From: a virus
Reading direction: 5' to 3' (one strand)
IMG/VR virus record: IMGVR_UViG_3300030104_006237
Span: 29,458-52,435 of that record
Length of the DNA: 22,978 nucleotides
In this document: positions 1-21,295 of the stretch, piece by piece
Position numbering within the stretch: the stretch's first letter is position 1
How the letters are laid out: every line of letters starts with the position of its first letter
Made by a program: the position numbers and the translations under genes
Notes under the pieces: generated by a model
Databases searched by the model: none
What the model saw: only the letters and a program-made list of their open reading frames with translations
What the model was told of the DNA's origin: nothing

Positions 1-3000
1 GTCATCTACTGATGGTGGATTAAATCTTGAATACGCAGGAATCTCTCCTGACCAACTACCACCACCAGGACAAGGAGCATAACCCAACATACCATTTGTA
101 AAGTCGTCATCACAAAGTCCAGCCCCATTTAGAGCATATTCCCATTCTGTATCAATATTTGCACCAGTACCCATTCTAATTTTTCCTGGTTCTTCTGCAG
201 GTGGATTTTCTGTATACCATCCAAATCCCGGCGGCCCATAATTGTCTAAACCTAAACACAACTGTCCAGCTGTATATTCATTCATTCCATATCTACCATT
301 AAAATATTCAATACACTCATTAGTAGTAACATAATTACCCCCACTAATTGAATCACCATCAGTATCTGGTGTTTGATAATGGTTAAATAATTCTAACATC
401 ACTTCCCAATGATATTTTGTTGTACTAATTGATGGTCCTTCAGTTGTAATTGAAGTATCAATAGCAAGACTTGGGTCTATACCCTCAAAGGCTATTATTT
501 CAAATCTCATTTGTTTATTTGTAGACATAGACTTATGAGGAAATACATATAATTTAAATAAATGTTCATAACCCGTATACTGATTACCTAATGGAGTTTT
601 ACTAATTAATTCCAAATTATATAACATATCAGGTGGATTGTTTAAATACAAATAACCATCACTTGTAGGGTTTTCTGATTTAAGTCTACCGTATGATGCT
701 TGAGAAGAAAGATTACCGTTAAAATTAATAGCTATACAGGGATTTTTTACTTCATCTACAAAGGCTTGATGTTGTAAAAATTGAGTAGTAGTTTCAGATT
801 CAAAATATTCAGGATTATTTTTCCAATCATCTAATATTTCAGCTGAAACAAGATAGGGGTTAACATAACCAAACTCACTACAGAGATAGTTACCATCGAC
901 TCCAAATTCTCCCTCTATATCCTCATCAGTAATTGTAAAATATATTGGAACATAATTTGAACTATAATCCATATTTGGTTCATCTGCGTTTCTATCATCT
1001 GCAACTAATGAATTTTGAGTGGTTGAAATGTCAGCCGCAGGAAATGTAAATTGTTCTCTATGTGTATTGTTAATTGGATAATATCCAATATCATTTGGGT
1101 CTTTATATAAATTTGGTATGTCATTCTGCCAACGAGTATAATCCGTTTCTCTATGTATAGAATAAATATCATAACTTTCTTCTGGTGCATTAACCCCGTA
1201 GTGGTCTAAACCAATTTGTTTTACTGGTGGTATAACAGTTGGTGTTCTGTGATGATACGAATGAAAGGTATTAATTGTGTCTGAAGCTTCAGCATCATAA
1301 TTCAAAACTGAATTAATAATATTTAAATTTAAACCATCATTTACTGATGTTACACTTAAATCAAAATTTATTTCTGTATTACATACTGAACTAGTACCAA
1401 CTTCTGCGGAATCACAATCTAAATTAGTAAGATTGATGTTTACTGTTACTGGTGAATCTATTTCCGTATATCCATCTGCACCAAAATCAACAGATTTATT
1501 ATAATAATTTGGTTCTAAAGTTATTTTGTAAACAAACTCTACTATTGATTGGTTTTTAGGACCTTTATGTTGACTTCTATCACCATAATTATGATTAAAA
1601 CAAAAATTAAAAAACCCAGTATTATCTTCCAACAACATGTCATCCATATTTGGTGTTTCTGGAAAATTTGCTCTTTTATAAGATGTGTCACTATAAGTTC
1701 TATAATAACCTGTAATTGGGTCTAAATCTGTACCAACACCACCATTAAACGGCCATAAATGTACATTTTTATATGATGAGATATAAGTGTCATCTGTTTC
1801 GTCTAAATAAGGTAATTTTTTCTTAGGTACAAATCTTGGGTCACATTTATATACAAAATTTGATAAATTACCTTTTATAGGACGCTCTATACCATTATTA
1901 TTAATAACCGAATAATTAGTAAAAATAGGTTGTGAGTCAACCCAATATTCACCTACAGCTTCACCACCCATGCCCCCTTCCCATTCTACAACTAAATCAC
2001 CACCCGTATAAACTGGTAAGTTTACTCCCCAAGTTGGATGTATAGCTGCAATTTTTTCATATTGTGGAGAAGTATCTGTGAGAAATAAATAAGCATAATC
2101 TGAAAATTGAGTTAGTTCATTGTTATTCTCATAAAGATAATTATAATTATGATGAGGAATTATATTATTAAAATTATCTGGTACTGGAGTACCTACAATG
2201 CCAGAATTTTCAGATGGATAATAATATTTTAAAATATCATATGGAGCACCATTTCCCAAAGGAATATGAGAAAATGAATTTGCCCATTCTCTCGAAGAAA
2301 CATCACTTGTACTCTGTAAAGGTTTATGACCAAAAACATATTGAGATGGTTCATCTACTAATATTTCATCATCACCATCCATTTGTACAAGTTGGATACT
2401 AACACCACTAGTATCTCCATTGTTGTCTAATCCACCAGTTAATGTTATTTGACTACTTATATTATCACTAAGTGTAGAATATTCTTGGGGATTAAAAGCC
2501 CTTACTACAAAATAAGCAGTTTTATCTTCTTTCATAGTTACTTTTGATTTTGTCAAACCAGTTCCATTTTTTATAGGTTCTATAAATGGAGCTTTTGTTA
2601 ACCAACCCATTTGATTTATATCACCTGAAGCTTCATTTCCATAATCACTATCAGTATGTAAATTATTCTCTGTCCTTCTATGTCTCGCATATCTAGCCAT
2701 TTGATATTCTGCCAATGCTAAAATACCATTTGTACCAGCTATTGTTCCTTCTTCTGTTAGTCCACCAAAGGAGTAGCCTCCAAGAAGACCAAGTCCTCCT
2801 TTTCCTGAAAGTTCAGTAGCGTACCATGTTGAAGAATCAGCTACATTTATATTTCCAGTACCATAATCTTTTTGAAAAGAAAATGGTCCTATATCTACCC
2901 AAGAAAAACCATTCACCTTACTATCTAAATTTACACTACCACCAACCATTTCCGTTCTTTCAAAGTCTGAGGTATTTATAAAATTATCAGGTATTGATGG

Positions 3001-6000
3001 TAATACCTGAGAAATATTAAGATAGGTATTATGAAATTCATTATCAGAGAAATCTGCGTCTTCACCACCAAATGGTTTTTGATAAAGATAATGTTCATAA
3101 TTATCAGAATATGATGGAACAGTAGCAGTTATGTCATTTGTAAAATCGAAAGTATAAGTAAACACCAAGTTAGTCATATCTGTACCACCAGAATAATGTG
3201 GTGGGGTAAGATGTGGATCGTTTCCTATATTGAGATTAAAATTATCATACATTAATTGAAATTCATAATTATAAAATAAATTTTCATGTGATGAATTTCC
3301 TTCACTATTAATATAACCATTGACAAAATTATTATCATGTATAGATGGTAATTCATTATTAATTAAGTAGTTAGAAAAATTACTGTTATTAAATTTATTT
3401 AATTGAATTGGCATAACTATAGGCCCATCACCAACCTCCGTCACTGCAATATCAATACTTCTTATAGTGGATGTAGTTGTTATACTAGTCATATCATCCG
3501 TGTATTCTGGAAATAAACCATCTACACTTTCTGTGGGTCTTATAATATAACATTGATAGTCAACAAAATCTGTACCAAAAAAGTTAAGATTTCCTTTATA
3601 TTTTACTATCCATTGTCCTGTAAAATTAGGAGAGTTTGGAGTAACATCTGTAATTGTACCAGATGGTGGTGGTCCATTAGGAAACTCTACACCAACTGTA
3701 AAACCAAGACTATTAACAGCAAATTCTAATGAAACTGTTTCCCAATCACTTAATGGTTGTCCAGGTGATGTTGGAACACTAACCTCATTATTATCAACTC
3801 CACAATTTAAAAATATTGTTGTTTCTACATCTTCAACAGCTGTTGTAGCTATATCATCTATAAGTAAATCTATTATAGGAAGCACTCTTATATGTATCTC
3901 ACCAATTTCAGATGTCACATCCGTATCATCTGTTATTGTATATCTGATAATTTCTTCAGATATAAGACCACCAGAAGTTGTATAATTATAAAAATTTGTT
4001 TGTGGTTCATATCTAATTTGAGTTGAACTAAGAGCTCCAGCTTGTCCATTATCAGGTTCACTAATAATTTCAAAAGTAAAAGGTCCATCAGAATCTACAT
4101 CAGTAAAGTTAAAACCCTCTTCTAAAGTTATGTCAATAAATGTGTCTTCAAAAGTAGTGTATGTTTGTGTTTGTATAACAGGTGCATCTAAAACTGGTTC
4201 TACAAATATTGAATGTGTAAGTTCTGTAGTACATGTTTCGTCTTGATTAGTAAGACCATCAAAATCTTGATTACATATAATATAACTAAAACTATCATAA
4301 GTTGCTAATTCGTTTACAGTTGAAAAATAATCTAAATTAGATAAATACATTACTGAATCAATACCAGCTGGTAAGGAACTAATAGTTTGATATCTACATA
4401 GAGCGTGTACTTCTTTATATATTTCATAAAACTGAGCATCAATAGTACCAGAACCAAATAGCTCTCCTGTCGACCAATTAAAATCTTGATGTTGAAGAGC
4501 AATCCAATGTGGTGAGTCGGGGTCTTCTGAAAAACTATTACCACCCCTCCTTCTGACATCATAACACTCATATATATTTTCCATAGTTGAATCATTTGTT
4601 ATTGGATTACAACAAGTACTACCAAAGTTATTATCAAATTGACCCCAATCTCCCGTTTTATCACAAACATCATTATACAAAGAAAATCCAGGCTTGTGTA
4701 AATCACAACATGGATTATTAGGTGTTGAATCTATATCTATTCGAAAACCATTATTAGGAACTTCTTCAAGACAATATGAACCAGTACACAGAATCGCATC
4801 TGAACCATCATAAAAATTAAATATATCCAATTCAAACCAACTACGATAATTTGGTCTAATACCCTCACCATTATCACCACAATATTCTAAATTAAAAGGC
4901 TCCCAATTACCACTTGAACGATAACCCATATTACAATGTTTGTAGGTTACGACATTACTATTACTATACAGTCTACTTTCTTCACCATCTTTGACTAATA
5001 TACTTTGAAAAATAACATTTGGATTATTTGTAGTTATTAATGAATCACAAGCTTCTCTTCCAGTTTCAAATTCATATTCAATATCAGAGCCATTTGCAGA
5101 AAAACATCCTTGTTCTAATCCGAATGTTGGTACATTCCCGTTACATTCGTTTTCATATATTTTAACTGGTGTATCATTTACAGGTAGATTAATTTCATTA
5201 CCATCTAAATCTATTAAAGTGCCATACTCTGGAACTCGTGTTATATGAATTGTTAATTGTGGTACTAATGTTGAAGATAATTCAGAAAAAGGATAAATTT
5301 CTAAAGTTGTTTGTTCATCTTCAAGTACATTAAATTCCGTCTCGTATGCATTTATTACAGGCATTAATGGATTGTATGGAAAGAAATCAAAGTATGTATT
5401 ATTTTCAACAAATTCATCAAATTCTGCTTGGTTATAATTTTCAAATGGGTATTCCGTCCCAATTGTAGTATCTTCAGGTATGGTTTCGAGTTTAACACAA
5501 GGATATTCTCCAGCATTAGGGCCATCAGCTATTACATAAATTGGAACTTCTACATCACCATTTTCAATAGAGCTATCACATATACCACCCGCATCATCAC
5601 AATAATATATTTGAGCAAATTGATAAATAGGGGGTTGATAAAATATATCCGGGCTTCCATCACCATCAAAATCTAAAACATATCTAAATGGATACTCACA
5701 TAATGAATTATCATTTATACAATAATCAAACTCACAACCCACATTACAAGCACCACCAGTTCCAAATGGATTACCTTCTCCAGCTGAATCTAAACAAGAT
5801 AAACAAGATTCATATTCACAAGAACCATCATCGAAATTAGCCATTGGATTATAATTACAAGCATAAGAATCCATACAACCAAAAACTTGAACAGGACATC
5901 CAGTCCAAAGATTTTCGTGTGGTTGTGATGGTAGTAAATTTAATTCTATATTTTGATTTGGATAACTTGATTCAAATATTTGAGTATACAGTGGTGACAT

Positions 6001-9000
6001 AAAATCTAAATTATACCACTCTTGTGTTTCATCAAAAGTAGTCCACGCACCTATATCATTTACCACTAAATTTTTATTAACAAAAGGTTCAAATAATGGA
6101 TTTTTTAAATCACCCCAACCAAAAATTTCAACTCCAGATCTAGTTGGTGAAGATGATACATAATTACCCAGTCTGAAAAATGCATCATAACTCAGGTAGT
6201 TATCATGTATCGCAGCCCCTAAAATACCTGTTTGATTAATAAGCCCATTGTCAAGAAGTTCACGCCCCCAAACAGATTCTGGATCTGCTGCTGTATCTTT
6301 AAATAATGATGGAATTCCATTTGTTGTATCATCAGTAACAGGGTATGAATAGTTTGGATTCATATTAATCAATGGATTATTACTAAAATCATACTGTTTA
6401 AAATCTTTTTGAAAAGTGTGATTATATCCAGGTAAACTTATTCTAAATATATCATCTGTTGTAAATGTTTTATTACTTGAAATTGGATATTCACAACTTG
6501 TTGGATTACAATTTGTTGGTGAAACGGGAAAACCAGTAGAATAACAATAACCATCATTCTCATTCCATGTACAATCGGGACAATCTATACATACTTGTTG
6601 GTCTGTTATATCACAACAAGTTCCAAAACCCCTTAACCACCCACGAGTATAATGATAATACGCATAATGTTCCCAACATTCTTCCTCATTATAAAACCAA
6701 TCAAAATTAATATAACCATCTGTTGGATTAACTATTGTTGAAAAATCATCATATTCTCCGCGACACCATTCTGGAGCGTCATCTTTAATTCTTTGAATAA
6801 TAGTTCCTTGTAATACAGGAACAGAAAATGATTTTTGATTTTGAGGTGGTGTAGCACCCCAAGCTGACAAATCATCCCAACCAATTAATCCCCCACTACT
6901 TAATTCATTCATTGTTGTTGGGCCATTAAAATGGTCTGTAAATCTACAATTAAAAACTTCACAATATGGTTCGTTACCAAACTCATAAAGTGTTGGATGT
7001 TTAAATGGTAATGAGAATGTAGTTTGATGGGCAAGACATTCATCACCCCCACCACATTCATCTAAATTAACTATACTACACGGTTCACCGCTTAAACCAC
7101 ACCGACCATCAATCGTATACATTGTTACTGGTAAGTCAACAATATCTCCGTCTTCAGGATTAAACCCATTAGGTTTCCACTTAATACCTCTATCACTACA
7201 TACACTTACATTAGCAGCGTAAGGGGGATTATCCCAACATTGTAAAGGTAAACCACCTTCCCAAGCCCAAGCTCTACCATAATTACCAGTACTATAAGCT
7301 TCACCACATATACCACAAACATTTAAAGTATATTGATGTAAATCAGAAGCTGTGGGATTTTCAAGATCATCATAACCACAAGCACACAAAGAACCATAAT
7401 CACTACCATAGTTAGGTAAAGATGGGCCATCAGATTGAGCTCCAAATGCAAAACCTGGTAATTCATTTGCAAACATTCTATATGTAGGATTTGATGGATT
7501 TCCAGTAACAGAAGAGTGAAATTTTCGATTCATAGAATAATGATAAGTATTAACTCCTCCTAAAAAACTATTTTCAAAATTTAACACTCCCAATTCATCA
7601 CAATCATCTACTTTAACACCAGTAATTGAACTAATATAACCTGAAGAATAATTATTATATGGGGCAGCATTACCAGAATAAACAGTAGGACAATTTCCAA
7701 AATCGTCTCGTGGTAATACTCCACTACATTCACAAGCAAATTCTGGTATGTTTTGACAATATTGTTCAACATATTCTAAATTTACATCATCACCATCAAC
7801 AGCTTGTTCTAAATCTATACAAACTTGTGAAAATGGTTCTCCAGGATTATCAGAATTTGGACCACCACATAGTTTATGATACGAATCAGGTCTTTCAAAT
7901 AAATAATAATACTCACTCGGCCATGGATAATCCGAAAGTACAGAACTCGCAGGACCTGAATTATCTGTAAATTCAGGATATGCCGGATTAAATAATGTTT
8001 GTCCACATGTCCATGTTGTGTGAGTACCACCACAAACACCAGCACAATCTCTTACAGGACAATCAGTCATCGGGTGTGGGTTTTCATCGGCTAATTGTGA
8101 ATAAAGGTCTGGATTTAAATTATTTATATTATAATCTATACAATAATATTGTGTATCCCCATCACCACAATATTGTGTATCCCCATCAAACGCTTCACAA
8201 GAATCACGAAGTTCATTATTACCACCACAGGTTCCACAATAGTCAAAATATGTACAACAATCATTATCTTCACCACCACCAAAAACACCTCCAGAATTAC
8301 ACGGTTCTGAAGCTAATGGATTATAATTACAAGCTTGTGGATCAGTACAACCTACAATATATTCATCACCAGCATTAACACAAACACCCTCACCAGTTGC
8401 ATCATTTGTTTGTATCCATTCACACTCACTACAAGTTATACAACCCTCTTTTGGTGTAGCCCATTCTCCATCCGCAGCATTAGGAATACCAATTTCTATA
8501 AAATCAGGATCAGGAGGATAACTAAAATAACCACCCCCACCATCAAACTGACCATCAGGAGGAACATTATTAAAATCAGAAATTATAAACCCATCAAATG
8601 CATACACACCACCATATTGAATGGGGCCACCCCAATAATTTCGACCTGGATATGAACCATCTCTTGTTCTATCTATCATAACATTAAATCTATCACAACT
8701 ATAACCATCTACAGGTCTACTATCGTCATCACTTCTCCAACAAGCACATTGTGGCCAATTTTGATTCCCATTTACTCCAAAAAATCCAGGTTGACAATAG
8801 AAAAAATTCCAATCACCTGAAGCCCATCCACCACCACCTCCTCCGGGACCAGAGTTATGTGTTAATATACCATTTGCAAAAAATGTATGGTTATCTTCAA
8901 CAGTTATGTCATATGTTCTTATATTTTTTTCAAGTATATATTCTATATTCTCTACAATAACTTCTTTTAAAGTGTCATCACTATCATCATAATAATGTAA

Positions 9001-9549
9001 AGTGTCGCCCACATCTAATGATTGAATATTATTTCCATTATTACTATCTATTACCCATTGATGAACTCTATTACATCTCTCCTCATCAACAGCAATAAAT
9101 CCTTTTTCTTCTGACCAAAATGGATTAGCAATTGTATTGTGTGTAATGATACCATTATTAAAGGTAACTTTAACTGTAATATCACCATCTTTTAAATTAT
9201 GAGTTTGTGTATATAATTTTGTAACTAATTTATTTTCAAATTGATTTGTTTTTACATTAAAAGATTTAACATAATCTCCGACTTTTATTTCTTCAATATT
9301 TTTATTGGAATTATCAGGTAATAAAACTTTCGTACCAGCTACAAAACATTCTTCAGTAGGTCCACCACCAGGTGAAGTAAATAAATCAGCCATTGAACCA
9401 CCAAAAGGCTCACCATCCAATATTTGATTCCAATCATATGGATTACCATCTGGACCAATCCACACTTCAGGTTGTGTAATACCTTGATGATATAAACCAC
9501 CACTATAAAACATAGTTATTAATTTGTTTTTATTGTTATCAACCGCCAT
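1..9549 (-). CDS. Giant cysteine-rich multidomain tail/fibre protein, intein-containing (3' end beyond window)
   Basis: An ATG at 9549 follows an AAAGG ribosome binding site and opens a frame that has no stop down to base 1, giving at least 3183 residues; the C terminus lies outside the window. Residues 1-67 form a short N-terminal extein that ends in a Gly/Pro-rich stretch. Residues 68-232 are a Hint/intein domain, followed by the extein start SGPGGGGGGW. The next ~1100 residues are rich in Cys, with two GCxDxxACNYNPxA motifs (from residues 400 and 1224) and several CxxCGG motifs. A calcium-loop-like DFDGDGSPD lies at 1293-1301. At least three cadherin-like modules starting with an 'ED.. T' signature follow (around residues 1400, 1785 and 1898). 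No enzyme domain other than the Hint was recognised. It is the last visible gene of the baseplate operon, 14 nt after the LamG protein gene, which suggests a virion surface role such as adhesion or a long tail fibre. That role is inferred. A secreted or host-derived adhesin is less likely in this context. Confidence 0.85.
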   Translation of the reverse strand, partial: MAVDNNKNKLITMFYSGGLYHQGITQPEVWIGPDGNPYDWNQILDGEPFGGSMADLFTSPGGGPTEECFVAGTKVLLPDNSNKNIEEIKVGDYVKSFNVKTNQFENKLVTKLYTQTHNLKDGDITVKVTFNNGIITHNTIANPFWSEEKGFIAVDEERCNRVHQWVIDSNNGNNIQSLDVGDTLHYYDDSDDTLKEVIVENIEYILEKNIRTYDITVEDNHTFFANGILTHNSGPGGGGGGWASGDWNFFYCQPGFFGVNGNQNWPQCACWRSDDDSRPVDGYSCDRFNVMIDRTRDGSYPGRNYWGGPIQYGGVYAFDGFIISDFNNVPPDGQFDGGGGYFSYPPDPDFIEIGIPNAADGEWATPKEGCITCSECEWIQTNDATGEGVCVNAGDEYIVGCTDPQACNYNPLASEPCNSGGVFGGGEDNDCCTYFDYCGTCGGNNELRDSCEAFDGDTQYCGDGDTQYYCIDYNINNLNPDLYSQLADENPHPMTDCPVRDCAGVCGGTHTTWTCGQTLFNPAYPEFTDNSGPASSVLSDYPWPSEYYYLFERPDSYHKLCGGPNSDNPGEPFSQVCIDLEQAVDGDDVNLEYVEQYCQNIPEFACECSGVLPRDDFGNCPTVYSGNAAPYNNYSSGYISSITGVKVDDCDELGVLNFENSFLGGVNTYHYSMNRKFHSSVTGNPSNPTYRMFANELPGFAFGAQSDGPSLPNYGSDYGSLCACGYDDLENPTASDLHQYTLNVCGICGEAYSTGNYGRAWAWEGGLPLQCWDNPPYAANVSVCSDRGIKWKPNGFNPEDGDIVDLPVTMYTIDGRCGLSGEPCSIVNLDECGGGDECLAHQTTFSLPFKHPTLYEFGNEPYCEVFNCRFTDHFNGPTTMNELSSGGLIGWDDLSAWGATPPQNQKSFSVPVLQGTIIQRIKDDAPEWCRGEYDDFSTIVNPTDGYINFDWFYNEEECWEHYAYYHYTRGWLRGFGTCCDITDQQVCIDCPDCTWNENDGYCYSTGFPVSPTNCNPTSCEYPISSNKTFTTDDIFRISLPGYNHTFQKDFKQYDFSNNPLINMNPNYSYPVTDDTTNGIPSLFKDTAADPESVWGRELLDNGLINQTGILGAAIHDNYLSYDAFFRLGNYVSSSPTRSGVEIFGWGDLKNPLFEPFVNKNLVVNDIGAWTTFDETQEWYNLDFMSPLYTQIFESSYPNQNIELNLLPSQPHENLWTGCPVQVFGCMDSYACNYNPMANFDDGSCEYESCLSCLDSAGEGNPFGTGGACNVGCEFDYCINDNSLCEYPFRYVLDFDGDGSPDIFYQPPIYQFAQIYYCDDAGGICDSSIENGDVEVPIYVIADGPNAGEYPCVKLETIPEDTTIGTEYPFENYNQAEFDEFVENNTYFDFFPYNPLMPVINAYETEFNVLEDEQTTLEIYPFSELSSTLVPQLTIHITRVPEYGTLIDLDGNEINLPVNDTPVKIYENECNGNVPTFGLEQGCFSANGSDIEYEFETGREACDSLITTNNPNVIFQSILVKDGEESRLYSNSNVVTYKHCNMGYRSSGNWEPFNLEYCGDNGEGIRPNYRSWFELDIFNFYDGSDAILCTGSYCLEEVPNNGFRIDIDSTPNNPCCDLHKPGFSLYNDVCDKTGDWGQFDNNFGSTCCNPITNDSTMENIYECYDVRRRGGNSFSEDPDSPHWIALQHQDFNWSTGELFGSGTIDAQFYEIYKEVHALCRYQTISSLPAGIDSVMYLSNLDYFSTVNELATYDSFSYIICNQDFDGLTNQDETCTTELTHSIFVEPVLDAPVIQTQTYTTFEDTFIDITLEEGFNFTDVDSDGPFTFEIISEPDNGQAGALSSTQIRYEPQTNFYNYTTSGGLISEEIIRYTITDDTDVTSEIGEIHIRVLPIIDLLIDDIATTAVEDVETTIFLNCGVDNNEVSVPTSPGQPLSDWETVSLEFAVNSLGFTVGVEFPNGPPPSGTITDVTPNSPNFTGQWIVKYKGNLNFFGTDFVDYQCYIIRPTESVDGLFPEYTDDMTSITTTSTIRSIDIAVTEVGDGPIVMPIQLNKFNNSNFSNYLINNELPSIHDNNFVNGYINSEGNSSHENLFYNYEFQLMYDNFNLNIGNDPHLTPPHYSGGTDMTNLVFTYTFDFTNDITATVPSYSDNYEHYLYQKPFGGEDADFSDNEFHNTYLNISQVLPSIPDNFINTSDFERTEMVGGSVNLDSKVNGFSWVDIGPFSFQKDYGTGNINVADSSTWYATELSGKGGLGLLGGYSFGGLTEEGTIAGTNGILALAEYQMARYARHRRTENNLHTDSDYGNEASGDINQMGWLTKAPFIEPIKNGTGLTKSKVTMKEDKTAYFVVRAFNPQEYSTLSDNISSQITLTGGLDNNGDTSGVSIQLVQMDGDDEILVDEPSQYVFGHKPLQSTSDVSSREWANSFSHIPLGNGAPYDILKYYYPSENSGIVGTPVPDNFNNIIPHHNYNYLYENNNELTQFSDYAYLFLTDTSPQYEKIAAIHPTWGVNLPVYTGGDLVVEWEGGMGGEAVGEYWVDSQPIFTNYSVINNNGIERPIKGNLSNFVYKCDPRFVPKKKLPYLDETDDTYISSYKNVHLWPFNGGVGTDLDPITGYYRTYSDTSYKRANFPETPNMDDMLLEDNTGFFNFCFNHNYGDRSQHKGPKNQSIVEFVYKITLEPNYYNKSVDFGADGYTEIDSPVTVNINLTNLDCDSAEVGTSSVCNTEINFDLSVTSVNDGLNLNIINSVLNYDAEASDTINTFHSYHHRTPTVIPPVKQIGLDHYGVNAPEESYDIYSIHRETDYTRWQNDIPNLYKDPNDIGYYPINNTHREQFTFPAADISTTQNSLVADDRNADEPNMDYSSNYVPIYFTITDEDIEGEFGVDGNYLCSEFGYVNPYLVSAEILDDWKNNPEYFESETTTQFLQHQAFVDEVKNPCIAINFNGNLSSQASYGRLKSENPTSDGYLYLNNPPDMLYNLELISKTPLGNQYTGYEHLFKLYVFPHKSMSTNKQMRFEIIAFEGIDPSLAIDTSITTEGPSISTTKYHWEVMLELFNHYQTPDTDGDSISGGNYVTTNECIEYFNGRYGMNEYTAGQLCLGLDNYGPPGFGWYTENPPAEEPGKIRMGTGANIDTEWEYALNGAGLCDDDFTNGMLGYAPCPGGGSWSGEIPAYSRFNPPSVDD
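3430..5365 (-). repeat. Cadherin-like (tandem-type) beta-sandwich modules of the giant protein
   Basis: Three segments share the opening 'xEDxxTxxxI': NVLEDEQTTLEIYPF (from about 5350), TTFEDTFIDITLEEGF (from about 4155) and TAVEDVETTIFLNC (from about 3845). The middle copy is the clearest. It continues with FTDVDSDGPFTFEI, ISEPDNGQ, RYEPQTNFY, a YTITDD strand and a closing EIHIRVLPIID, the usual order for cadherin-like tandem domains of surface adhesins. The first and third copies are weaker. Domain limits are approximate. Confidence 0.5.
5800..8352 (-). repeat. Cysteine-rich repeat region of the giant protein
   Basis: Two diverged copies of a GCxDxxACNYNPxA motif occur, at 8352 downwards (GCTDPQACNYNPLA) and 5880 downwards (GCMDSYACNYNPMA, followed by DDGSCEY). 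Between them are CxxCGG-like elements: CGTCGGNN near 8236, CAGVCGG near 8055, CECSGV near 7735 and VCGICGE near 7320. Motifs of this kind are familiar from long secreted proteins of marine bacteria, notably Bacteroidota; that comparison is from general knowledge, not a search. The copies are too diverged to align as DNA repeats. Confidence 0.65.
8145..8188 (-). repeat. Short tandem duplication (20-nt exact repeat, 24-nt period)
   Basis: The 20-mer at 8145-8164 recurs exactly at 8169-8188, an offset of 24 nt (8 codons). In the protein this gives GDTQYCGDGDTQYYC, a duplicated GDTQY segment inside the cysteine-rich region. The reading frame is preserved. It looks like a recent slippage or duplication event. 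Confidence 0.85.
8854..9348 (-). other. Mini-intein (Hint domain) in the giant structural protein
   Basis: Residues 68-232 of the giant protein (165 aa). The N-terminal splice block is CFVAGTKVLLPD, with catalytic Cys1, followed by the typical 'IEEIKVGDYV' strand. The C-terminal blocks read YDITVEDNHTFF and then ANGILTHN, with penultimate His231 and terminal Asn232; the +1 residue is Ser233. This is the layout of a splicing-competent class 1 intein. At this length there is no room for a homing endonuclease, so it is a mini-intein. Block B is recognisable as TIANPFWSEEKGFIAV, but the expected TxxH histidine is Asn (TIAN). Splicing would join SPGGGPTEE to SGPGGGGGGW. A bacterial-intein-like (BIL) domain that mainly cleaves is the alternative. 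Confidence 0.9.
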
Positions 9550-9563
9550 TGATTACCTTTTAA

Positions 9564-11297
9564 TTAAATTTCTTCTGGAGCAAATCCTCGAGCTCTCAAT
9601 AAATCTGATTTTGATATTATTTCTACTTTACATTTAGCACCTAATTCAGAATTATCTACATATATACCTTCTCCAGTAACATTACCTCTCCAATAATCTG
9701 GATTCTGTAAATAATTTTCTCCAAGTGAATCATCTATCATAGGATTATATGTAGCGACAATAAAGTACCATTCATTAAAATCAATTGGTACTCTTGTATG
9801 AGACAATAAATATTTTTCATCTCCTTTTTCATATGGAATATTTGATGATTCATTTCTACCAAATTCAGGAACAAAGCTTTGTCTATCCATATTAGTCATT
9901 CCTAAATGACTATCATATAATTTTCCAGTTGTTGAGTCTTCCTTATCAAGATTATCTAATACTACAAGTCTAATAAATCTTTCATAATCATTATCTTCAA
10001 ATAAACCAAGTCCTTCCGTTTCTGATATTTCACCCCATGTAGTATAACCATCATCACCTTCATCATTTCTATCTGATGTTAATAAATCATCTCTACCAAG
10101 AACAAATGTTTCTAATCTAAATCCTTTTGGGTCATATCCCCTAAGTGGATTTCCATAATTAAAAAGAGTTCCACGAGTTGTTACATCTAAAAATTTAACC
10201 CACATCGTAATTGTAAAACCATTAACCAAATAATTTGGAGCGTAACCATCTGCAATTAAAAATGTATCACTTGCGTAATCATAGTAAGGATGATAATAAT
10301 CATTTGAATTAGGCTCTATTGGTATTTCTGTATTTTTTTCAATTCCAACATCATCACCCTCTTGTTTTCTTATGATAATACCTTGATTTAAATTTCTTAT
10401 TTTTAGAAATCCTTCTGATTTGTTTTCGTAATCTGGTCTTTCATCTTGTAAAGTAGCTAATGTATCTTGGTCTATATCTTTTAAAAATAAATTTAAATCA
10501 TTTCTTAAATGTTCTAATGTTTTACTTTTATTTTTTTGATTGGTGTCAATATTTAATCTTGTTATAAATGAATTTTGTTCTGATGTTAAAGCTTCATCTG
10601 GATTATCTTGTACAAAAGAAATATCATGTAAAGCATTATATCCTTCTTGAGGTTCTATAAGATAATCTTGTGGGTCTGAATAATCAGCAAAAGCTGGATA
10701 ATCTCCTTTTAATATTTCATATTCTTTAAAAAATGCATTTATTCTTTGTTGACGACTTTGTTGTTGTGGTAGTAATTCGTGAATTCTAGTATCAAAAAAT
10801 TCTTTTATATTATTTGTATCATATGTTGGTGTTTCTTTATTAATATGAATATATTGACTTATATTTAATGGGTTAGTATCATTATTTTCATTTGGAAAAA
10901 TATATGGAGTTATATCAATAGCACCATTAACTGTAAGATTTGTGGTAAGTGAAACTGAAACTTCTTGTTGAGGTGTTACAGATACAGAAACTGTTGGAGT
11001 GGCTACAGAATCTTTTACAAAGGATTCATAAATACTTTTTAAATTATTATAAGTTGAATCACCTGATGTACCACTAAAATTAACATTAAAATCTTCTTGA
11101 TTTGCTTTTTCATCTCTTTGATAGATTAACATTCTATCACCGTCATCAATCATTCTTTGAGCAATACCATCTCTAACTGTTTTTTGGTGTTTTCTTAAAA
11201 ATTCTTTATTATTTAAATCGCCACCACCAGACAGAGTATCTATATTAGTGATTAAAGCATTTGCTATTTCATCTAAAAATTGTTCTATTGATATCAT
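9564..11297 (-). CDS. Virion protein with C-terminal LamG/concanavalin-like domain
   Basis: 577 aa. The N-terminal half (about 1-340) is hydrophilic, with a TVSVSVTPQQEVSVSL beta-rich stretch near 100-120 and charged helical segments near 150-300; no family was recognised there. From about residue 350 the sequence follows a LamG/ConA-like jelly roll: the NGFTITMWVKF strand, then GTLFNYGNP, a long insert, and the paired strand EWYFIVATYN. The C terminus is KVEIISKSDLLRARGFAPEEI. Such lectin-like folds in tail proteins commonly bind glycans. The ATG at 11297 has an AGAGG site and lies 6 nt after the previous gene; the giant gene begins 14 nt downstream. A baseplate-attached adhesion or fibre-anchor role is inferred from context. 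Confidence 0.7.
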   Translation of the reverse strand: MISIEQFLDEIANALITNIDTLSGGGDLNNKEFLRKHQKTVRDGIAQRMIDDGDRMLIYQRDEKANQEDFNVNFSGTSGDSTYNNLKSIYESFVKDSVATPTVSVSVTPQQEVSVSLTTNLTVNGAIDITPYIFPNENNDTNPLNISQYIHINKETPTYDTNNIKEFFDTRIHELLPQQQSRQQRINAFFKEYEILKGDYPAFADYSDPQDYLIEPQEGYNALHDISFVQDNPDEALTSEQNSFITRLNIDTNQKNKSKTLEHLRNDLNLFLKDIDQDTLATLQDERPDYENKSEGFLKIRNLNQGIIIRKQEGDDVGIEKNTEIPIEPNSNDYYHPYYDYASDTFLIADGYAPNYLVNGFTITMWVKFLDVTTRGTLFNYGNPLRGYDPKGFRLETFVLGRDDLLTSDRNDEGDDGYTTWGEISETEGLGLFEDNDYERFIRLVVLDNLDKEDSTTGKLYDSHLGMTNMDRQSFVPEFGRNESSNIPYEKGDEKYLLSHTRVPIDFNEWYFIVATYNPMIDDSLGENYLQNPDYWRGNVTGEGIYVDNSELGAKCKVEIISKSDLLRARGFAPEEI

Positions 11298-11303
11298 AAC
11301 CTA

Positions 11304-12488
11304 TTACCTCTTAACTTTAAATTCAAAATTGTTGTCAATTATTTGTTCTTGATTATCATCATATTTTAACTTATAAATTATTTTATAAGCCCTATCAGGT
11401 TCAAATGTATTCATCCATTGTATAAAATAATTTGAAGTTGAATCACAACTCATTGATGTATAAGAACTAAATGGAATTATTGTTTCTCCTGTTGCTAAAT
11501 CTACAATAGAATAACTACCACTTCCCTCAACTATAAAAGAACCCGTATGTGTTTGTACAGAATTTGTAAATGTTTTTTGTATATATCTTTTTCTAGCTCC
11601 TACTCTAAATTTAACTTTTTCAGTTTCTTTATATGAATCTCGTAAACCAATCATATATAAATAATTATCAGAAGCACCACTCATTGTTAATGGTGTAAGA
11701 CTTCCTGTATTAGAACCACTACAAGCTATATGGTCATCCCACCTTACTTCTAATTTAGGTGAATAAATTGTATGAGTATTTCTTGAAAAGAATTTTAAAT
11801 GTCCAAACGAACCAGTTAATCCCGCCGAATCTTGTGTAATTATTCCATTTGTATGTGCTAAACTTGAACTAAATCTTAAAAGAAATCCATTATTACTAGC
11901 AGATTGTACTAACCAATTATCTACAATACTTGTTACATCCATTTCAATATCAGTTGATTGATATGAAAATGATTGAGAAGCTTCATAACCACTAGCAGTC
12001 ATAATGTTTCCACCATGAAGTCTGACATCAGAACCATCAGAGTGTACTCTACTCCAACTTATAGGGTTTCCTCCAGCTGGATAACTTCTATTTTCCCAAC
12101 TACAACCATTTGTAATTTTTGGATTGTTAGTAAATTTACCAGTTCCCTCATCCCACGATTGAGATAATGCAAAAGCTTGTAATTCATAATCTGAAGATAG
12201 TTCTTTGTTACCTTCTGCTTCATATAATCTTAAATAATATTTAGTTAATCCAGTTGAAGCATGTGGTATATCACCATCTATTACTGATTTAGATATTTCA
12301 TTAAAACCACTACCAGCAAAATTTATTAAAACTCTTGTTTCATAATCAAAACTATTATTAAAGTATTCTTTTTTTAATTCAAGAATTTCATCTTGACCAA
12401 AGTTTTGGTCTCTAAATGATTCTCCAGTTACATTTGAAGAACCACTTGAAATCCAAGAATCTGCTGTTGGGAAAATAAAATAATGCAT
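11304..12488 (-). CDS. Virion protein with N-terminal DNRLRE-like beta-sandwich
   Basis: 394 aa. The N-terminal ~250 residues resemble DNRLRE/CBM96-type sandwiches. They open with ADSWISSGSSN, then QNFGQDEILELK and ETRVLINF, followed by YYLRLYEAEGN and a late MDVTSIVDNWL strand near residue 185, with SPKLEVRW closing the domain. The remaining ~145 residues form a second beta-rich domain (KVKFRVGARKRY, GSGSYSIVDLATGETI) without a clear assignment. The start ATG overlaps the gp6 stop by one base (TAATG) and has an AAGGAG site, so translation is probably coupled to gp6. Its place after gp6 is where T4-type phages often carry gp7/gp8 wedge proteins, but no sequence likeness to those was seen. It is likely a baseplate or fibre component. 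Confidence 0.7.
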   Translation of the reverse strand: MHYFIFPTADSWISSGSSNVTGESFRDQNFGQDEILELKKEYFNNSFDYETRVLINFAGSGFNEISKSVIDGDIPHASTGLTKYYLRLYEAEGNKELSSDYELQAFALSQSWDEGTGKFTNNPKITNGCSWENRSYPAGGNPISWSRVHSDGSDVRLHGGNIMTASGYEASQSFSYQSTDIEMDVTSIVDNWLVQSASNNGFLLRFSSSLAHTNGIITQDSAGLTGSFGHLKFFSRNTHTIYSPKLEVRWDDHIACSGSNTGSLTPLTMSGASDNYLYMIGLRDSYKETEKVKFRVGARKRYIQKTFTNSVQTHTGSFIVEGSGSYSIVDLATGETIIPFSSYTSMSCDSTSNYFIQWMNTFEPDRAYKIIYKLKYDDNQEQIIDNNFEFKVKR

Positions 12489-14620
12489 TATAATACCACT
12501 CCTTTTATATTATTGTTTGGATATTTAAGTTCAAATACTGATGGTGTACCAATTGGGTTAGATGGAATTATCATTCCAAGACCAGTATCAGCTTGAGTAA
12601 AATCATATTTATAATTATAACCAGCGGTTCCGTTTTCAGACATAACACCAGAAGTCGCATCATATAAATAATTATAAAGTTTTGCTCCTGATGGGGGTTC
12701 TTGAGATATAGTTACATCATTAACAGCTCTAACCCCATCTATACCCATCATTTCATACATTAATTGACTAATATTAATAGCCTGATTAAATTGCATTTTA
12801 TCTATGTGAAAATATTCTTTAATTTTTTCTATACACCTCAATTTAACTTCTTGTTTATTAGCATATTTATGAGCAACCACTTCAAAATCAACACCAAAAT
12901 TAATTATATAACCATCTTGTATGTTTACAACATCTGTTAAAATTTTATATTCATTTAAATAATTTTTTATATTTTGTTCTAATAGTAATGTTGTACTGTC
13001 AGTTGTACCTAAACCAGCTGCGTGTGGGTTACCGACTAAATGTTTATTTCTATCATAACCTAAAATATAAATATCAATTGTTCCAAATTTTGTTTGTGTT
13101 TCTGTTGATAAATTTTCTGTATTAGTAGCGATTGGTTGAAAGTAATTATTTACTAAGTCATACATATCTAGCGGAGTACCCATACTCAATATGTTAAATA
13201 TTTCTCCATCAGGATTTAAAGCAGTTTGAAAATCTTGTACCGCTTGATTTAAACCAGAATATAAATTAACACCAATATTGTCTACATCAACACTAGATCT
13301 TGCAACATATACTTTTGATATTCCACCATATTTTGTTGGCATATTTAATATTCTAGCTTCATAATCTTCTTTTGTTACAGCTCTATCTTGTGTAGAAAAA
13401 TTAGCTGTTGCATTGTGTCTAATTTCTTCAATAGTTTCTTGATTTTTACCACCACGAGCAGGTATTTCATTTGTAACACTTAATACTGTTCCAACATCAA
13501 CCAATGTGGCTAAATCTCCAACAGGAACATTACTAGACATACCACCACCTGTTCTATATGTTATGGTTAAAGTTATATTATTTGGTGATTCACCAAGAGT
13601 AGAATATTCATCACCAAGAAGAGGATTTGTTGAACTTTCTAAATCAGTAGTTTGACCTGGTATTACTATTCCAGCCTGTTCTAATTGTAAATAATTACTA
13701 CCTATTGTATCTCCCTTTAAAATACCATTTCCAAATACAAGTGATGTTGTATTGTCTTCATTTACTTCTACTATAAATCTTTTTTCTGTTCTAATATATT
13801 CTAAAGAATATGGAACTGCTATATCACTAATTTCGGTTGTTCCTTCTACTAAAGAAGAATAAGCACTTTCTCTACCATCATCGTTTGAATAATGTGTTTC
13901 AAGTGCTACTTTATCTTGTGCTAGATAGTCTACTTTGTACCATTTATTATTATTAGAATCAACACAATCAATTATATCAATAACATTTTTTTCAGGTAAA
14001 GTTAATCTTAAAAATTTTTCTGGAGCTCCTACAGAAAAAGTATGTGTCTTAGTTTCACCACTAATAGCTTTAACTGTTCTCTCTATTCTGTATGTTTCTG
14101 CTAATTGTGTATTTGAATTTGTTGTTTGTATAACATTGGTATCACCAGAAGCAGTTATTTGAAAATCTAAATATTCTAAAGTTTCAAATACAATATTTGA
14201 ATTTATTGATGATTGAACTTGTAAACCTTTATCAAAATTTGTAGCACTACTATAATTTATAGTAGCTGGATTTTCTGTAGAAGCATTTACATTTTGATAA
14301 AATGTTAAATCAACAAATGCCGGAACTGATGGTTTTATTTTATATCCCATCATTTTTGCCATATTTATAACATTTCTTCTTTCCTCCGCTAAAGGCATTA
14401 ACATTTCTTTATATTGTTGGTCAATGTAAAATGATAACACATCACCAACATACGCTGACATTTCTATTAACATCATACCAGGTGATGATTCATTAAAATC
14501 TTTATATGTATCTGGAAAATAAGATTTAGCGTAATCAATTAAGGATTTTTTTATATCACTAAAATCTTTATTTAAATAGTTTACATTAGATTCTTTAAAG
14601 TCTGTTTCATTATAAGGCAT
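12488..14620 (-). CDS. Baseplate wedge protein gp6-like (J-type)
   Basis: 710 aa, close to the length of T4 gp6 (660). The N terminus carries the hallmark of this family: DIKKSLIDYAKSYFPDTYKDF, then ESSPGMMLIEMSAYVGDVLS, FYIDQQYKEMLMPLAEERRN and a following 'MAKMMGYKIKPSVPA' segment. The middle contains the GGGMSSNVPVGDL and NEIPARGGKNQETIEEIR motifs and RAVTKEDYEARI, all typical of gp6/gpJ-like wedge proteins. In the family, gp6 dimers form the inner ring of the baseplate around the hub and work with gp25. The gene lies 15 nt after gp25 with a GGAG site, and its stop overlaps the next start. The order gp25-gp6 matches T4-like phages. Identification is by motif recall, not by a search. Confidence 0.9.
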   Translation of the reverse strand: MPYNETDFKESNVNYLNKDFSDIKKSLIDYAKSYFPDTYKDFNESSPGMMLIEMSAYVGDVLSFYIDQQYKEMLMPLAEERRNVINMAKMMGYKIKPSVPAFVDLTFYQNVNASTENPATINYSSATNFDKGLQVQSSINSNIVFETLEYLDFQITASGDTNVIQTTNSNTQLAETYRIERTVKAISGETKTHTFSVGAPEKFLRLTLPEKNVIDIIDCVDSNNNKWYKVDYLAQDKVALETHYSNDDGRESAYSSLVEGTTEISDIAVPYSLEYIRTEKRFIVEVNEDNTTSLVFGNGILKGDTIGSNYLQLEQAGIVIPGQTTDLESSTNPLLGDEYSTLGESPNNITLTITYRTGGGMSSNVPVGDLATLVDVGTVLSVTNEIPARGGKNQETIEEIRHNATANFSTQDRAVTKEDYEARILNMPTKYGGISKVYVARSSVDVDNIGVNLYSGLNQAVQDFQTALNPDGEIFNILSMGTPLDMYDLVNNYFQPIATNTENLSTETQTKFGTIDIYILGYDRNKHLVGNPHAAGLGTTDSTTLLLEQNIKNYLNEYKILTDVVNIQDGYIINFGVDFEVVAHKYANKQEVKLRCIEKIKEYFHIDKMQFNQAINISQLMYEMMGIDGVRAVNDVTISQEPPSGAKLYNYLYDATSGVMSENGTAGYNYKYDFTQADTGLGMIIPSNPIGTPSVFELKYPNNNIKGVVL

Positions 14621-14635
14621 TATTTATCTCCATTG

Positions 14636-15124
14636 TTAATATCCACCAGCATCACTAACGGGTGTAATATCACCACCAGTTTGATTAACTTCTACTTGTA
14701 CTGAACTAAGTGTTGTTGGGTCTTGGTTTATATTAAAATCAATTTTTACGGCTACAGTATTTTTATCAAAATTACCATCATCTTCTATTCCAAATATTTG
14801 AATATCTTCAACATTAACGAATGGTAACCAAAAATTTAATTTATTTAAAATATCTTCTTGAATTTCTAAATCTAAATCACCATCCATTTGTTCAAATAAA
14901 ACACTTCTTAAACTTAAACCAAAATGAGGTTGCATAATTCTTTCACCAGCTTCAGTTAGTAATAAGTTTCTTATATTATTTTTTACAGCCTCAATAGTTG
15001 TAGATGTTGATGCAAAATATCCATCCGCACCATCACCTCTTCTTATGGGTAAATCTATTCCAATAAAAATATTTTCATCTCTATCATTTATAAAAGGTTT
15101 TTTTGTTGTATCTTTTATTGCCAT
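14636..15124 (-). CDS. Baseplate wedge protein gp25-like
   Basis: 162 aa, slightly longer than T4 gp25 (132). The family core is clear: FIGIDLPIRRGD near residue 20, TIEAVKNNIRNLLLTEAGER (42-61), MQPHFGLSLRSVLFEQMDG, and a C-terminal strand pair VAVKIDFNINQ. The GER near residue 60 sits at the position of the conserved E-P/E-R region of gp25/GpW-type wedge proteins. In known baseplates gp25 staples gp6 to the sheath initiator. The C-terminal ~20 residues (GGDITPVSDAGGY) are an extra tail. The start ATG lies 1 nt after the upstream stop, with an AAAGGA site inside the end of the upstream gene. Confidence 0.9.
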   Translation of the reverse strand: MAIKDTTKKPFINDRDENIFIGIDLPIRRGDGADGYFASTSTTIEAVKNNIRNLLLTEAGERIMQPHFGLSLRSVLFEQMDGDLDLEIQEDILNKLNFWLPFVNVEDIQIFGIEDDGNFDKNTVAVKIDFNINQDPTTLSSVQVEVNQTGGDITPVSDAGGY

Positions 15125-19220: not shown

Positions 19221-19958
19221 CTACGCAAACAATTCATCAAACTTCTGTTTGAGATTGTCTACCTTTTTTTGTTCATCTTTACTTTTTGGAACTTTTGTAT
19301 TTACAGGTTCACTATCATCACCATGCCATTCATCAAACTCAATATGCGTCGCCATCATATCAGCCTGATGAAGAATATAACACATATTAGTTCTCAATCT
19401 AAAATCAGGATTATATCCCATTAGATAAGCTTTGTTAGCTTCATCATATAAACCATCAGTTAATTTAATACCAATGTATTCTTTATCTGTAACTTTGACA
19501 CCATAATGTTGAAGTAACCACAAACCTCTATCAGGTACTTTCATATACTGAAGAGATGGATTGTGTTTATAGATAGCACCTTGATTTTTTCTATGCCATT
19601 CCGAATCTTGTGGAATATAATAGTCGTGTTCCAAATCACCAACTTTACCTAAGTCGTGATGCATTGCTGCAAATACCAACTCTTCGTCTGTAAAGTTTAT
19701 GTCTGCTCCATTCTTTTCCCACACCTCTTTAACTTGTAAAGAGAATTGGATAATATGAAGAATGTGTTCAACATATCCACCAGGCATTGCGTTGTGAAAA
19801 TGTCCTTTAGCACTAGCTGGTGCAAACATCATTCTCTCTTCAAAATCTTTATACATCTTTAAAAGATTTTCTTTTCTATCATCATCAATAAAACCTTCAA
19901 TAGTGTCTAATAGTTTTTTCCAATTGTCTTGTATTTGTTCTGCTGATAATTTTTTCAT
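19221..19958 (-). CDS. HD-domain metal-dependent phosphohydrolase
   Basis: 245 aa. Metal ligands are in the expected order: His55 in HFHNAMPGGYVEH, the HD pair His101-Asp102 in AAMHHDLGK, His/Gln/Tyr in LLQHYGVKVTDKE (about 149-161), and Asp200 in ILHQADMMATHIE. The HAMPGG-like motif and the HHDLGK box are typical of phage HD hydrolases that act on nucleotides or nucleic-acid ends; the exact substrate cannot be read from the sequence. Codons are less AT-extreme than in the neighbouring genes. The start overlaps the glycosyltransferase stop (ATGA) and has a GAGG site, so the two are translationally coupled. A role in phage nucleotide metabolism or in processing a modified nucleotide is possible (inference). 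Confidence 0.85.
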   Translation of the reverse strand: MKKLSAEQIQDNWKKLLDTIEGFIDDDRKENLLKMYKDFEERMMFAPASAKGHFHNAMPGGYVEHILHIIQFSLQVKEVWEKNGADINFTDEELVFAAMHHDLGKVGDLEHDYYIPQDSEWHRKNQGAIYKHNPSLQYMKVPDRGLWLLQHYGVKVTDKEYIGIKLTDGLYDEANKAYLMGYNPDFRLRTNMCYILHQADMMATHIEFDEWHGDDSEPVNTKVPKSKDEQKKVDNLKQKFDELFA

Positions 19959-21295
19959 TTTATAACCTCGTATCTATTTTTTGTAAATTTAATTGTCTTT
20001 TCATTTCTTAATCTATTTCTATATCCAGTAAAAGATATTCTCACTCCCCAATTTAGATAATCTAAAATATCTGCTTTAGATACAGAACCTTTTTTATGAA
20101 TAAAATTTAATATTCTTTTATAAGAATCTGTATCATTCTTTAGGGTTGGTAATTTATCTATTGTTTCATTTAACATATTATTAAATTGATGTATAGCTGT
20201 TTCCCACTTACCTTTTTCAAATCTCTCTAATGATTTATCACTCCAATACTTCCTATCTTCGTCATTATCTAAAATAGTATGTATTGTTTGAATAAAATCA
20301 CTATCGTCTTTATAATATATTCCAGCACTATCAGCTAACTCGTGATAATAATTATCATCTGAAAACATATAAGGAACACCCACACTCATACCATCAGTAG
20401 CAGATATAGCCCAACCACCATATCTCTGTTTACAACAAACACCAATATAACAACTTGATAATTTAGAAAAATATCCAAACCTATCATACTTATCATTCGT
20501 CATATATGGTTTTGTAACTGAATCAGATAACGGTACCCACACCTCAAAGTCTTGCCTATCTTCCCACAATCTATCCATCTGTTTTAAGAACCATGGATAA
20601 TCTTTATAAGTGTGAGGTCTGTGATTGTATACTATAATTTTTTTATCAGATGATTGTTTATCATACTTTGGAATCTCCCACCCTAAATAGTTGGGAACAA
20701 TTATCTCATCTAATCGTATAAGTGACTCTTTGTTAAAACTTTTCTTCGCATTCTTTAGTATAAGTTCCTTTTGCCCTAGCGTATTGATACCACACCTCTC
20801 CATCTCTAATAGTCCAAGAATATTAACATCCATCATAGTCATTTCATAATTTGTTATTTCAGGAAATTCTGTCCAATGAGTATAACCAATAAACAATGGA
20901 TTTATATTTGTGTTATTATATAAAAGATTTTTTAATTGTAAAGTATGTTCTGGTAAATGAGTCCATACAATATCATAATGTTTTTTCTTCCAATCAATTT
21001 CTCTTATGATTGTTTTGAAATCAAAATGTGTTCTCATAGCATTTGGATAAGATGGAAGAGGCAATATAATTTGTTCTGTATTATCAAAATCTAAACTATC
21101 TATTTGTTTTGGTGATATTATAGTCCAAAATAAATCATCTCGTATCTTACTTAATTCATTAATTATATTTCCAAGAACAACAACATAAGAATCTTTTTCT
21201 AAATCTTTTTGATAAGTTATGTTTGGATAAACAAGAATGTTATATCCATATTCTTTATCATTGTCCTTAACATCGATGAAGTTATTTAAATTCAT
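19955..21295 (-). CDS. GT-B glycosyltransferase with C-terminal winged-helix domain
   Basis: 446 aa. The first ~385 residues have a two-lobe GT-B layout. The N lobe has NILVYPNITYQK and HYDIVWTHLPEHTLQ. The C lobe has IIVYNHRPHTYKDYPWFLKQ (221-240), FEVWVPL, a GVCCKQRYGGWAISATDGM stretch (285-303), and SVGVPYMFSDDNYYHELA, the usual donor-binding region of GT4-like enzymes. Residues 391-446 look like a separate winged helix: YKRILNFIHKKGSVSKADIL, a recognition-helix-like FTGYRNRLR, and a wing IKFTKNRYEVI. A DNA-binding appendage on a glycosyltransferase points to DNA as acceptor, as for base glucosylation by T-even phages; this is inferred. It overlaps the upstream gene by 1 nt (TAATG) and the HD gene by 4 nt. 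Confidence 0.8.
   Translation of the reverse strand: MNLNNFIDVKDNDKEYGYNILVYPNITYQKDLEKDSYVVVLGNIINELSKIRDDLFWTIISPKQIDSLDFDNTEQIILPLPSYPNAMRTHFDFKTIIREIDWKKKHYDIVWTHLPEHTLQLKNLLYNNTNINPLFIGYTHWTEFPEITNYEMTMMDVNILGLLEMERCGINTLGQKELILKNAKKSFNKESLIRLDEIIVPNYLGWEIPKYDKQSSDKKIIVYNHRPHTYKDYPWFLKQMDRLWEDRQDFEVWVPLSDSVTKPYMTNDKYDRFGYFSKLSSCYIGVCCKQRYGGWAISATDGMSVGVPYMFSDDNYYHELADSAGIYYKDDSDFIQTIHTILDNDEDRKYWSDKSLERFEKGKWETAIHQFNNMLNETIDKLPTLKNDTDSYKRILNFIHKKGSVSKADILDYLNWGVRISFTGYRNRLRNEKTIKFTKNRYEVIK

Follow-up and report, generated by a model that had tools for sequence, protein, structure and literature searches.

The window, meaning the whole stretch of 22,978 nucleotides analysed here, comprises positions 29,458–52,435 of a 52,435-base virus record (IMGVR_UViG_3300030104_006237). 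Its left end is occupied by a giant virion-type ORF on the minus strand (1..9549), which starts with an ATG at 9549 and runs out of the window at the left. The ORF is located just downstream of the baseplate genes. Upstream of it, all on the minus strand, are the genes for baseplate wedge protein gp25 (14636..15124) and for a wedge protein of the gp6/baseplate J type (12488..14620), both recognized by profile matches, followed by a gene for a CBM96-like virion protein (11304..12488), which was used as the query that retrieved 157 related viral loci, and a neighbouring virion gene with a LamG-like trace (9564..11297), which marks the orthologous position in relatives. Judged by its position, this ORF most likely encodes a virion protein of a phage with a contractile tail. 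By the genes of the baseplate region, the nearest isolates are Microcystis phage Mel-JY01 and Flavobacterium phage immuto, at about 28–34% identity. Also adjoining the structural genes, the intervals 19955..21295 and 19221..19958 gave a weak match to glycosyltransferase group 1 and a PHROG match to a metal-dependent phosphohydrolase.

The giant ORF encodes 3,183 residues inside the window and about 3,193 to the next stop in the parent record, where its true end is uncertain, since that stop comes only a few codons further on, near a run of N. This short run lies at about 29,430–29,470 of the parent record, at the left window end (L008, L009), and a 4,487-residue ORF in the same direction overlaps the end of the giant ORF there. 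The giant protein may thus be longer than 3,193 residues, or two genes may have been fused or split by the N gap. Profile search and the sequence itself identified Cadherin_4/Big_9 domains and Cys-rich “GCxDxxACNYNP..DDGSC” modules. Cys-rich modules of the form “GCxDxxAxNYxxxAxxDDGSC” recur in the giant proteins of the window (1..8853) and of L014, L114, L097 and L126, and look like freely shuffled adhesin modules.

A HINT or mini-intein domain of 165 residues, Cys68–Asn232 (8854..9348, minus strand), is found near the N-terminus of this protein, in one reading frame with the giant ORF and supported by profiles, a structural model and Foldseek. It begins with CFVAGTKVLL, ends with ANGILTHN and is followed by Ser233. 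An earlier, sequence-only reading had described exactly this insert in an ORF of about 9.5 kb; its coordinates were exact, and the strand, which it had left unstated, is minus. In front of the element is a 67-residue N-extein (9349..9549, minus) that ends in SPGGGPTEE, so that the −1 residue is Glu67. Using the residue nomenclature of PMC4031507, block A (9319..9348, minus) carries the nucleophile Cys1, which is Cys68; the block B core T139-I-A-N142 (9124..9135, minus) retains Thr at B:7 (Thr139) and has Asn142 in place of the His at B:10; block F, RTYDITVEDNHTFF (8878..8919, minus), contains Asp214 (F:4) and His221 (F:13); and block G, NGILTHN (8854..8874, minus), which matches TIGR01443, contains the penultimate His231 (G:6) and the terminal Asn232 (G:7). 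The +1 nucleophile, Ser233 (8851..8853, minus), opens the Gly-rich linker SGPGGGGGG (8827..8853, minus) directly after the element. The element has no endonuclease domain, and a search for a promoter or terminator within or around it gave nothing above chance.

The search against HintN/HintC-type profiles that the sequence-only reading had proposed returned PT-HINT as the best Pfam family (1.9e-8, over the curated cut-off), with weaker matches to Hom_end_hint, Intein_splicing and Hint, and the NCBIfam family TIGR01443 (intein C-terminal region) at 1.1e-10 and 41.4 bits, against a cut-off of 15.6. When the element was compared with the PDB by phmmer, the Tetrahymena BIL2 domain came out on top (5.6e-9), followed by a bacterial BIL domain and then by inteins. 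An AlphaFold model built from 13 aligned sequences had a pLDDT of 91.1. Foldseek matched it to HINT structures in the PDB with an E-value of 4e-11, in the order BIL2 (6y75/6tmm; PMC8616854 and the Foldseek listing), Clostridium BIL, and the RecA, CDC21 and DnaB inteins; the matches to the RecA, DnaB and gp41-1 inteins had E-values of 1e-8 to 1e-7. The predicted structure has the HINT fold of class 1 inteins. Hedgehog-type (Hog) domains are distinguished by PF01079 as the best family, an SCYA-type end and the lack of His-Asn; the element matches PF01079 at just 0.0007 and ends in His-Asn. The element is confirmed as a HINT domain, with a similarity far beyond chance.

Besides the window copy, ten further non-identical copies were found in marine viral contigs by three scans and one scan with a host protein as query, which gave L050. 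These are L010 (the same as L002), L013 (L004), L014 (L003), L060 (L011), L117 (L012), the near-identical pair L114 and L118, L050 (with the near-identical L143), L020, which is cut off by the end of its contig, and L141. Identity to the window copy is 59–67% (63% for L141), with homologues at 63–67% in independent viral contigs. Isolated phages yielded no close match, the best being Vibrio helicase inteins at 23–35% identity, and one scan of bacterial and archaeal genomes, with one genome per species, gave two distant matches only.

Cys1, Thr B:7, Asp F:4 and His F:13 are invariant in all copies where they were sequenced, and every complete copy has His-Asn and a hydroxyl residue at +1. Of nine distinct complete copies, eight have Ser at +1 and the ninth (L141) has Thr, a conservative swap of nucleophiles; Ser, Thr and Cys make up just 14% of the 20 residues after +1, although the copies are related and no formal probability can be attached to this. 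At −1, every complete copy has an acidic residue, Asp in L050 and L143 and Glu in the others. Conservation of the −1 Glu was partly built into one scan, which used the pattern ECFVAGT, but acidic residues also came from a scan with different patterns, with Glu in L141 and Asp in L050 and L143. At B:10, the whole clade has Asn instead of His. With dN/dS between copies of 0.08–0.31, the element is under purifying selection. The class 1-type terminal residues pointed out by the sequence-only reading (Cys1, His-Asn and the +1 Ser) are therefore not only intact but conserved under selection, and the relatives with degenerate Cys1 or His-Asn that it had named as evidence against itself were not found, the residues being kept in the complete copies. 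What it overlooked is the change of the block-B His to Asn142, the BIL-like choice of hypervariable linkers and the occurrence of one element across unrelated virion genes.

At least four different proteins serve as hosts of the element, and its sites are without exception variable, mostly Gly-rich linkers. In the window, L013, L014, L114/L118 and L050, it occupies the beginning of the giant gene that follows the LamG gene. L117 and L020 also carry it in the giant gene family, in this case behind about 160–275 residues of another domain. In L060, it is found one gene further downstream, at residue 830 of 1,316, and in L010 in a small protein whose gene is flanked by a neck-like gene and that of the tail sheath. 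The fifth setting, in L141, is a protein of 2,200 residues that carries a “KIYNEVI..WND” module at its N-terminus; two upstream genes of L141 have the same module without a HINT domain. A conserved insertion site, which is usual but not defining for inteins, is not seen among the copies.

Alleles without the element are clearest for the small protein of L010. L132 and L133 have the same N-terminal and C-terminal domains with an ordinary linker between them. For the gene of L060, the Hint-free L075, L092 and L098 join the conserved N-terminal part directly to the conserved last 100 or so residues, and L077, L080, L096 and L120 join the two through other variable sequence. Free insertion into an otherwise unchanged L060 host was considered and rejected, since the variable block with the element, Gly-rich sequence and extra domain sequence is missing as a whole from L075, L092 and L098. 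At the giant-gene position, 41 rows cover 250 residues or more of the gene that follows LamG, and the element is present in 8 of them, some rows being near-identical. The Hint-free L083, L094, L097 and L126 have the His-rich N-terminal module of L014, L114 and L050 and then pass straight into another domain. The locus closest to the window by CBM96 (L052, 84%) was uninformative, with an unrelated gene at the giant-gene position. Residues 233–633 of the window C-extein, used as a query, found no relative in viral contigs, and this variability of the C-extein is why no exact empty site can be given for the giant gene of the window. The intein-free alleles that the sequence-only reading proposed to look for therefore exist in exact form for the L010 host and as Hint-free orthologues of the giant protein, where an exact empty site is obscured by the variability of the flanks.

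A His-rich stretch, RPRPDDGHNxDGHHHHxHxH, was noted near the N-terminus of the giant proteins of L014, L050, L083, L094, L097, L114 and L126, both with and without the HINT domain. It is possibly a metal-binding or attachment module.

Comparison of the copies with their surrounding genes points to mobility. The L114 and L020 copies are 97% identical (dS 0.049), compared to 74% identity (dS 0.68) for the gp6 genes and a dS of 0.57 for the CBM96 genes of the same pair. For L060 and L117, dS is 0.29 for the element vs. 0.78 and 0.59 for the comparison genes. DNA similarity between copies begins and ends at the splice junction codons: between L114 and L020, no difference occurs in the first 60 bases of the element, and upstream of it, past a short GGT run, identity is at chance level. 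Because identity falls to chance outside the junction, the unit of similarity coincides with the splicing unit. The tree of copies is not sorted by host, with the window grouping weakly with L010 and L060 falling inside the giant-gene copies, and the element thus does not track its host protein. L020 provides the strongest case for transfer but is at a contig end, where an assembly chimera is possible; the copies in L060, L010 and L141 lie inside their contigs. Recombination appears to carry the element from one virion gene to another in related marine phages, as an exact splicing unit that enters variable, mostly Gly-rich linkers. Since there is no endonuclease domain, recombination in Gly-coding repeats is presumably the simplest route.

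These comparisons establish the fold, motifs, conservation and presence/absence pattern of the element. By its residues, the segment is probably a class 1-like mini-intein without a homing endonuclease that is spliced after translation, and we infer that the reaction reaches splicing, before or during virion assembly. Cys68 would take the N-extein from Glu67 as a thioester, which would be attacked by Ser233 to form a branched ester; Asn232 would then cyclize, assisted by His231, and an O–N shift would leave the 67-residue N-terminal module joined via ...PTE-E-S-GPGGGGG to a modular protein of about 2,950 residues. Splicing is favoured because the residues for transesterification and Asn cyclization are kept, the +1 residue is selected and the Hint-free allele is clean. 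The mini-intein interpretation of the sequence-only reading gains further support from the HINT assignment, the terminal residues and the absence of the element from relatives of the host proteins. Selection for Ser/Thr at +1 also favours splicing over cleavage by the Hint domain, two outcomes that sequence alone cannot separate. Of the residues expected in class 1, the element has Cys1, F:4 Asp and F:13 His, His-Asn and the +1 Ser/Thr, and in block B it has Thr139 but not the His.

The block-B His is essential for the first step in many inteins, and its replacement by Asn in the whole clade counts against splicing, as do the variable-linker sites, which are those of BIL domains, and the fact that the nearest solved relatives by both sequence and fold are BIL domains rather than inteins. 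However, the absence of the B:10 His is a known, rare variation, and the residue is assisting rather than defining (PMC4031507, PMC6333167). In the very few inteins that naturally lack it, compensation comes from another residue, and in an engineered example from a bulky −1 residue (PMC6333167). The loss may be compensated here too, perhaps by the conserved acidic −1 residue, whose role is a guess, or by some other residue of the active site.

A rather unlikely alternative is BIL-like autoprocessing. The main activity of the HINT domain would then be cleavage, at the C-terminal Asn, at the N-terminal thioester or at both, or else transfer of the N-terminal module to a hydroxyl or amine group on a different protein of the virion or cell surface, with separate or cross-linked chains as the product. 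The best solved matches are indeed Tetrahymena BIL2 and Clostridium BIL, BIL domains habitually insert into hypervariable parts of surface-type proteins (PMC2814812, PMC5874633), with inteins usually at conserved sites (PMC2814812), and isopeptide bonds have been reported for BIL2 (PMC8616854). Loss of the block-B His should also weaken the N–S acyl shift and can uncouple C-terminal cleavage. Against this, A-type BILs lack a +1 nucleophile (PMC4031507), whereas the clade keeps Ser, and once Thr, in unrelated exteins, and the trio of L010, L132 and L133 shows that removal of the element gives an ordinary linker, as excision would. Because of its +1 residue, the element is not filed as a type A BIL but classed by motif as a HINT-superfamily mini-intein with putative splicing activity.

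The lost His would also fit a decayed intein that is inactive or purely structural and retained as a folded spacer, and the host regions are structural and tolerant to insertion. This is improbable, with dN/dS well below 1 and every nucleophile kept; a passive spacer has no need for invariant Cys1, His-Asn, +1 Ser/Thr, F:4 Asp and F:13 His at an overall identity of 60–67%. That PT-HINT is the best Pfam family might suggest a pretoxin-type HINT that frees a C-terminal effector, as in polymorphic toxins. In PT-HINT systems, however, the HINT domain immediately precedes the C-terminal toxin (PMC3482391), whereas the element is near the N-terminus and is followed by about 2,950 residues of adhesin-like modules, in which a Pfam profile search found no toxin family; no immunity gene was seen. 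A pretoxin-type role is accordingly very improbable.

A broader model, doubtful but conceivable, is that of a lineage that spreads without homing. The Cys1-to-Asn unit, with its −1 acid and +1 Ser/Thr-Gly, would be recombined into Gly-coding linkers of unrelated virion genes and, lacking the block-B His, would depend on its own short flanks for activity. It would thereby serve as a portable joint, tolerant of scars, that connects a short module at the N-terminus with adhesin domains that can be swapped, or, in a variant of the model, the module would become covalently conjugated to a partner.

Among known systems, class 1 mini-inteins such as the Mtu RecA splicing domain, Ssp/Npu DnaB and gp41-1 share with the element the HINT fold, Cys1, Thr B:7, F:4 Asp, F:13 His, His-Asn, a +1 Ser/Thr and the lack of an endonuclease domain. 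Unlike them, the element has Asn for the block-B His, and it resides in variable virion-protein linkers of several unrelated hosts rather than at conserved sites of replication, terminase and nucleotide enzymes. Type A BIL domains, including Tetrahymena BIL2, are the nearest solved structures and have the hypervariable surface-protein sites, the His-Asn end and the lack of an endonuclease in common with the element, which differs in its conserved +1 nucleophile and in being phage-borne. Inteins that naturally lack the B:10 His likewise retain the rest of the splicing set, but they compensate through a different residue and through a bulky Leu at −1 (PMC6333167), whereas the element has Glu or Asp at −1 and a virion protein as host.

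DEAD-box helicase inteins from phage and MAG contigs (DE/CFVAGT ... HN/CH, with slashes at the junctions) have the same CFVAGT block A and −1 Glu. They differ from the element in their fixed Walker-B site, +1 Cys and block-B His, most have an endonuclease insert, and they are about 25–46% identical to it. Viral examples were collected as L023–L042, with the DE/C...HN/C(H) site and the CFVAGT block A, and are possible ancestors of the virion-protein clade. Uncultured Caudovirales proteins with Fn3 or collagen repeats (BFVD) also have HINT domains inside structural-type phage proteins, but these are just 13–26% identical to the element. Because these proteins were already deposited, the novelty of the present finding is limited; no study of splicing or mobility was found in the papers searched. 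In the open-access literature that was searched, phage inteins are described for terminases, helicases, polymerases and ribonucleotide reductase, and no such element for virion adhesins.

The known habitat of inteins is the conserved site of a replication or nucleotide enzyme, and that of BIL domains, which have no +1 nucleophile, is the variable surface protein. The clade appears to combine intein chemistry with a BIL habitat, and does so without the block-B His. One element with several unrelated exteins, and alleles with and without it, represents a natural set for testing how a splicing domain lives in fast-evolving virion proteins. The same set bears on endonuclease-free movement and on whether intein and extein can jointly replace a catalytic His. 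If the element splices, it is possibly a useful small intein that tolerates Glu/Cys (E/C) and Ser-Gly (S-G) junctions.

Other HINT domains were encountered in viral contigs. A hedgehog-type HINT is located at the C-terminus of the small protein between the neck-like gene and the tail sheath (L002/L010, 3647–4213; L132, 5001–5570; L133, 370–924), and in L010 the mini-intein comes directly before it. In L002/L010 it matches PF01079 at 5.7e-28 and Drosophila Hedgehog structures at 1.5e-14, and this second domain of L002 is accordingly of the Hog type. Its motifs are TxxH and a hedgehog-like “(N)CSCYAF” end, with a His where the general base D46 of Hedgehog aligns (compared with the D46H mutant structure, 6tyy). 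An AlphaFold model of the Hog-bearing L132 protein had a pLDDT of 42 and was set aside. More distant viral HINT domains were seen in L021 (7001–7468) and L022 (7001–7444), where His-Asn is followed by Lys at +1, as in type A BILs. The block-B His is intact in L021, and both domains are flanked by acidic, Pro/Gly-rich sequence.
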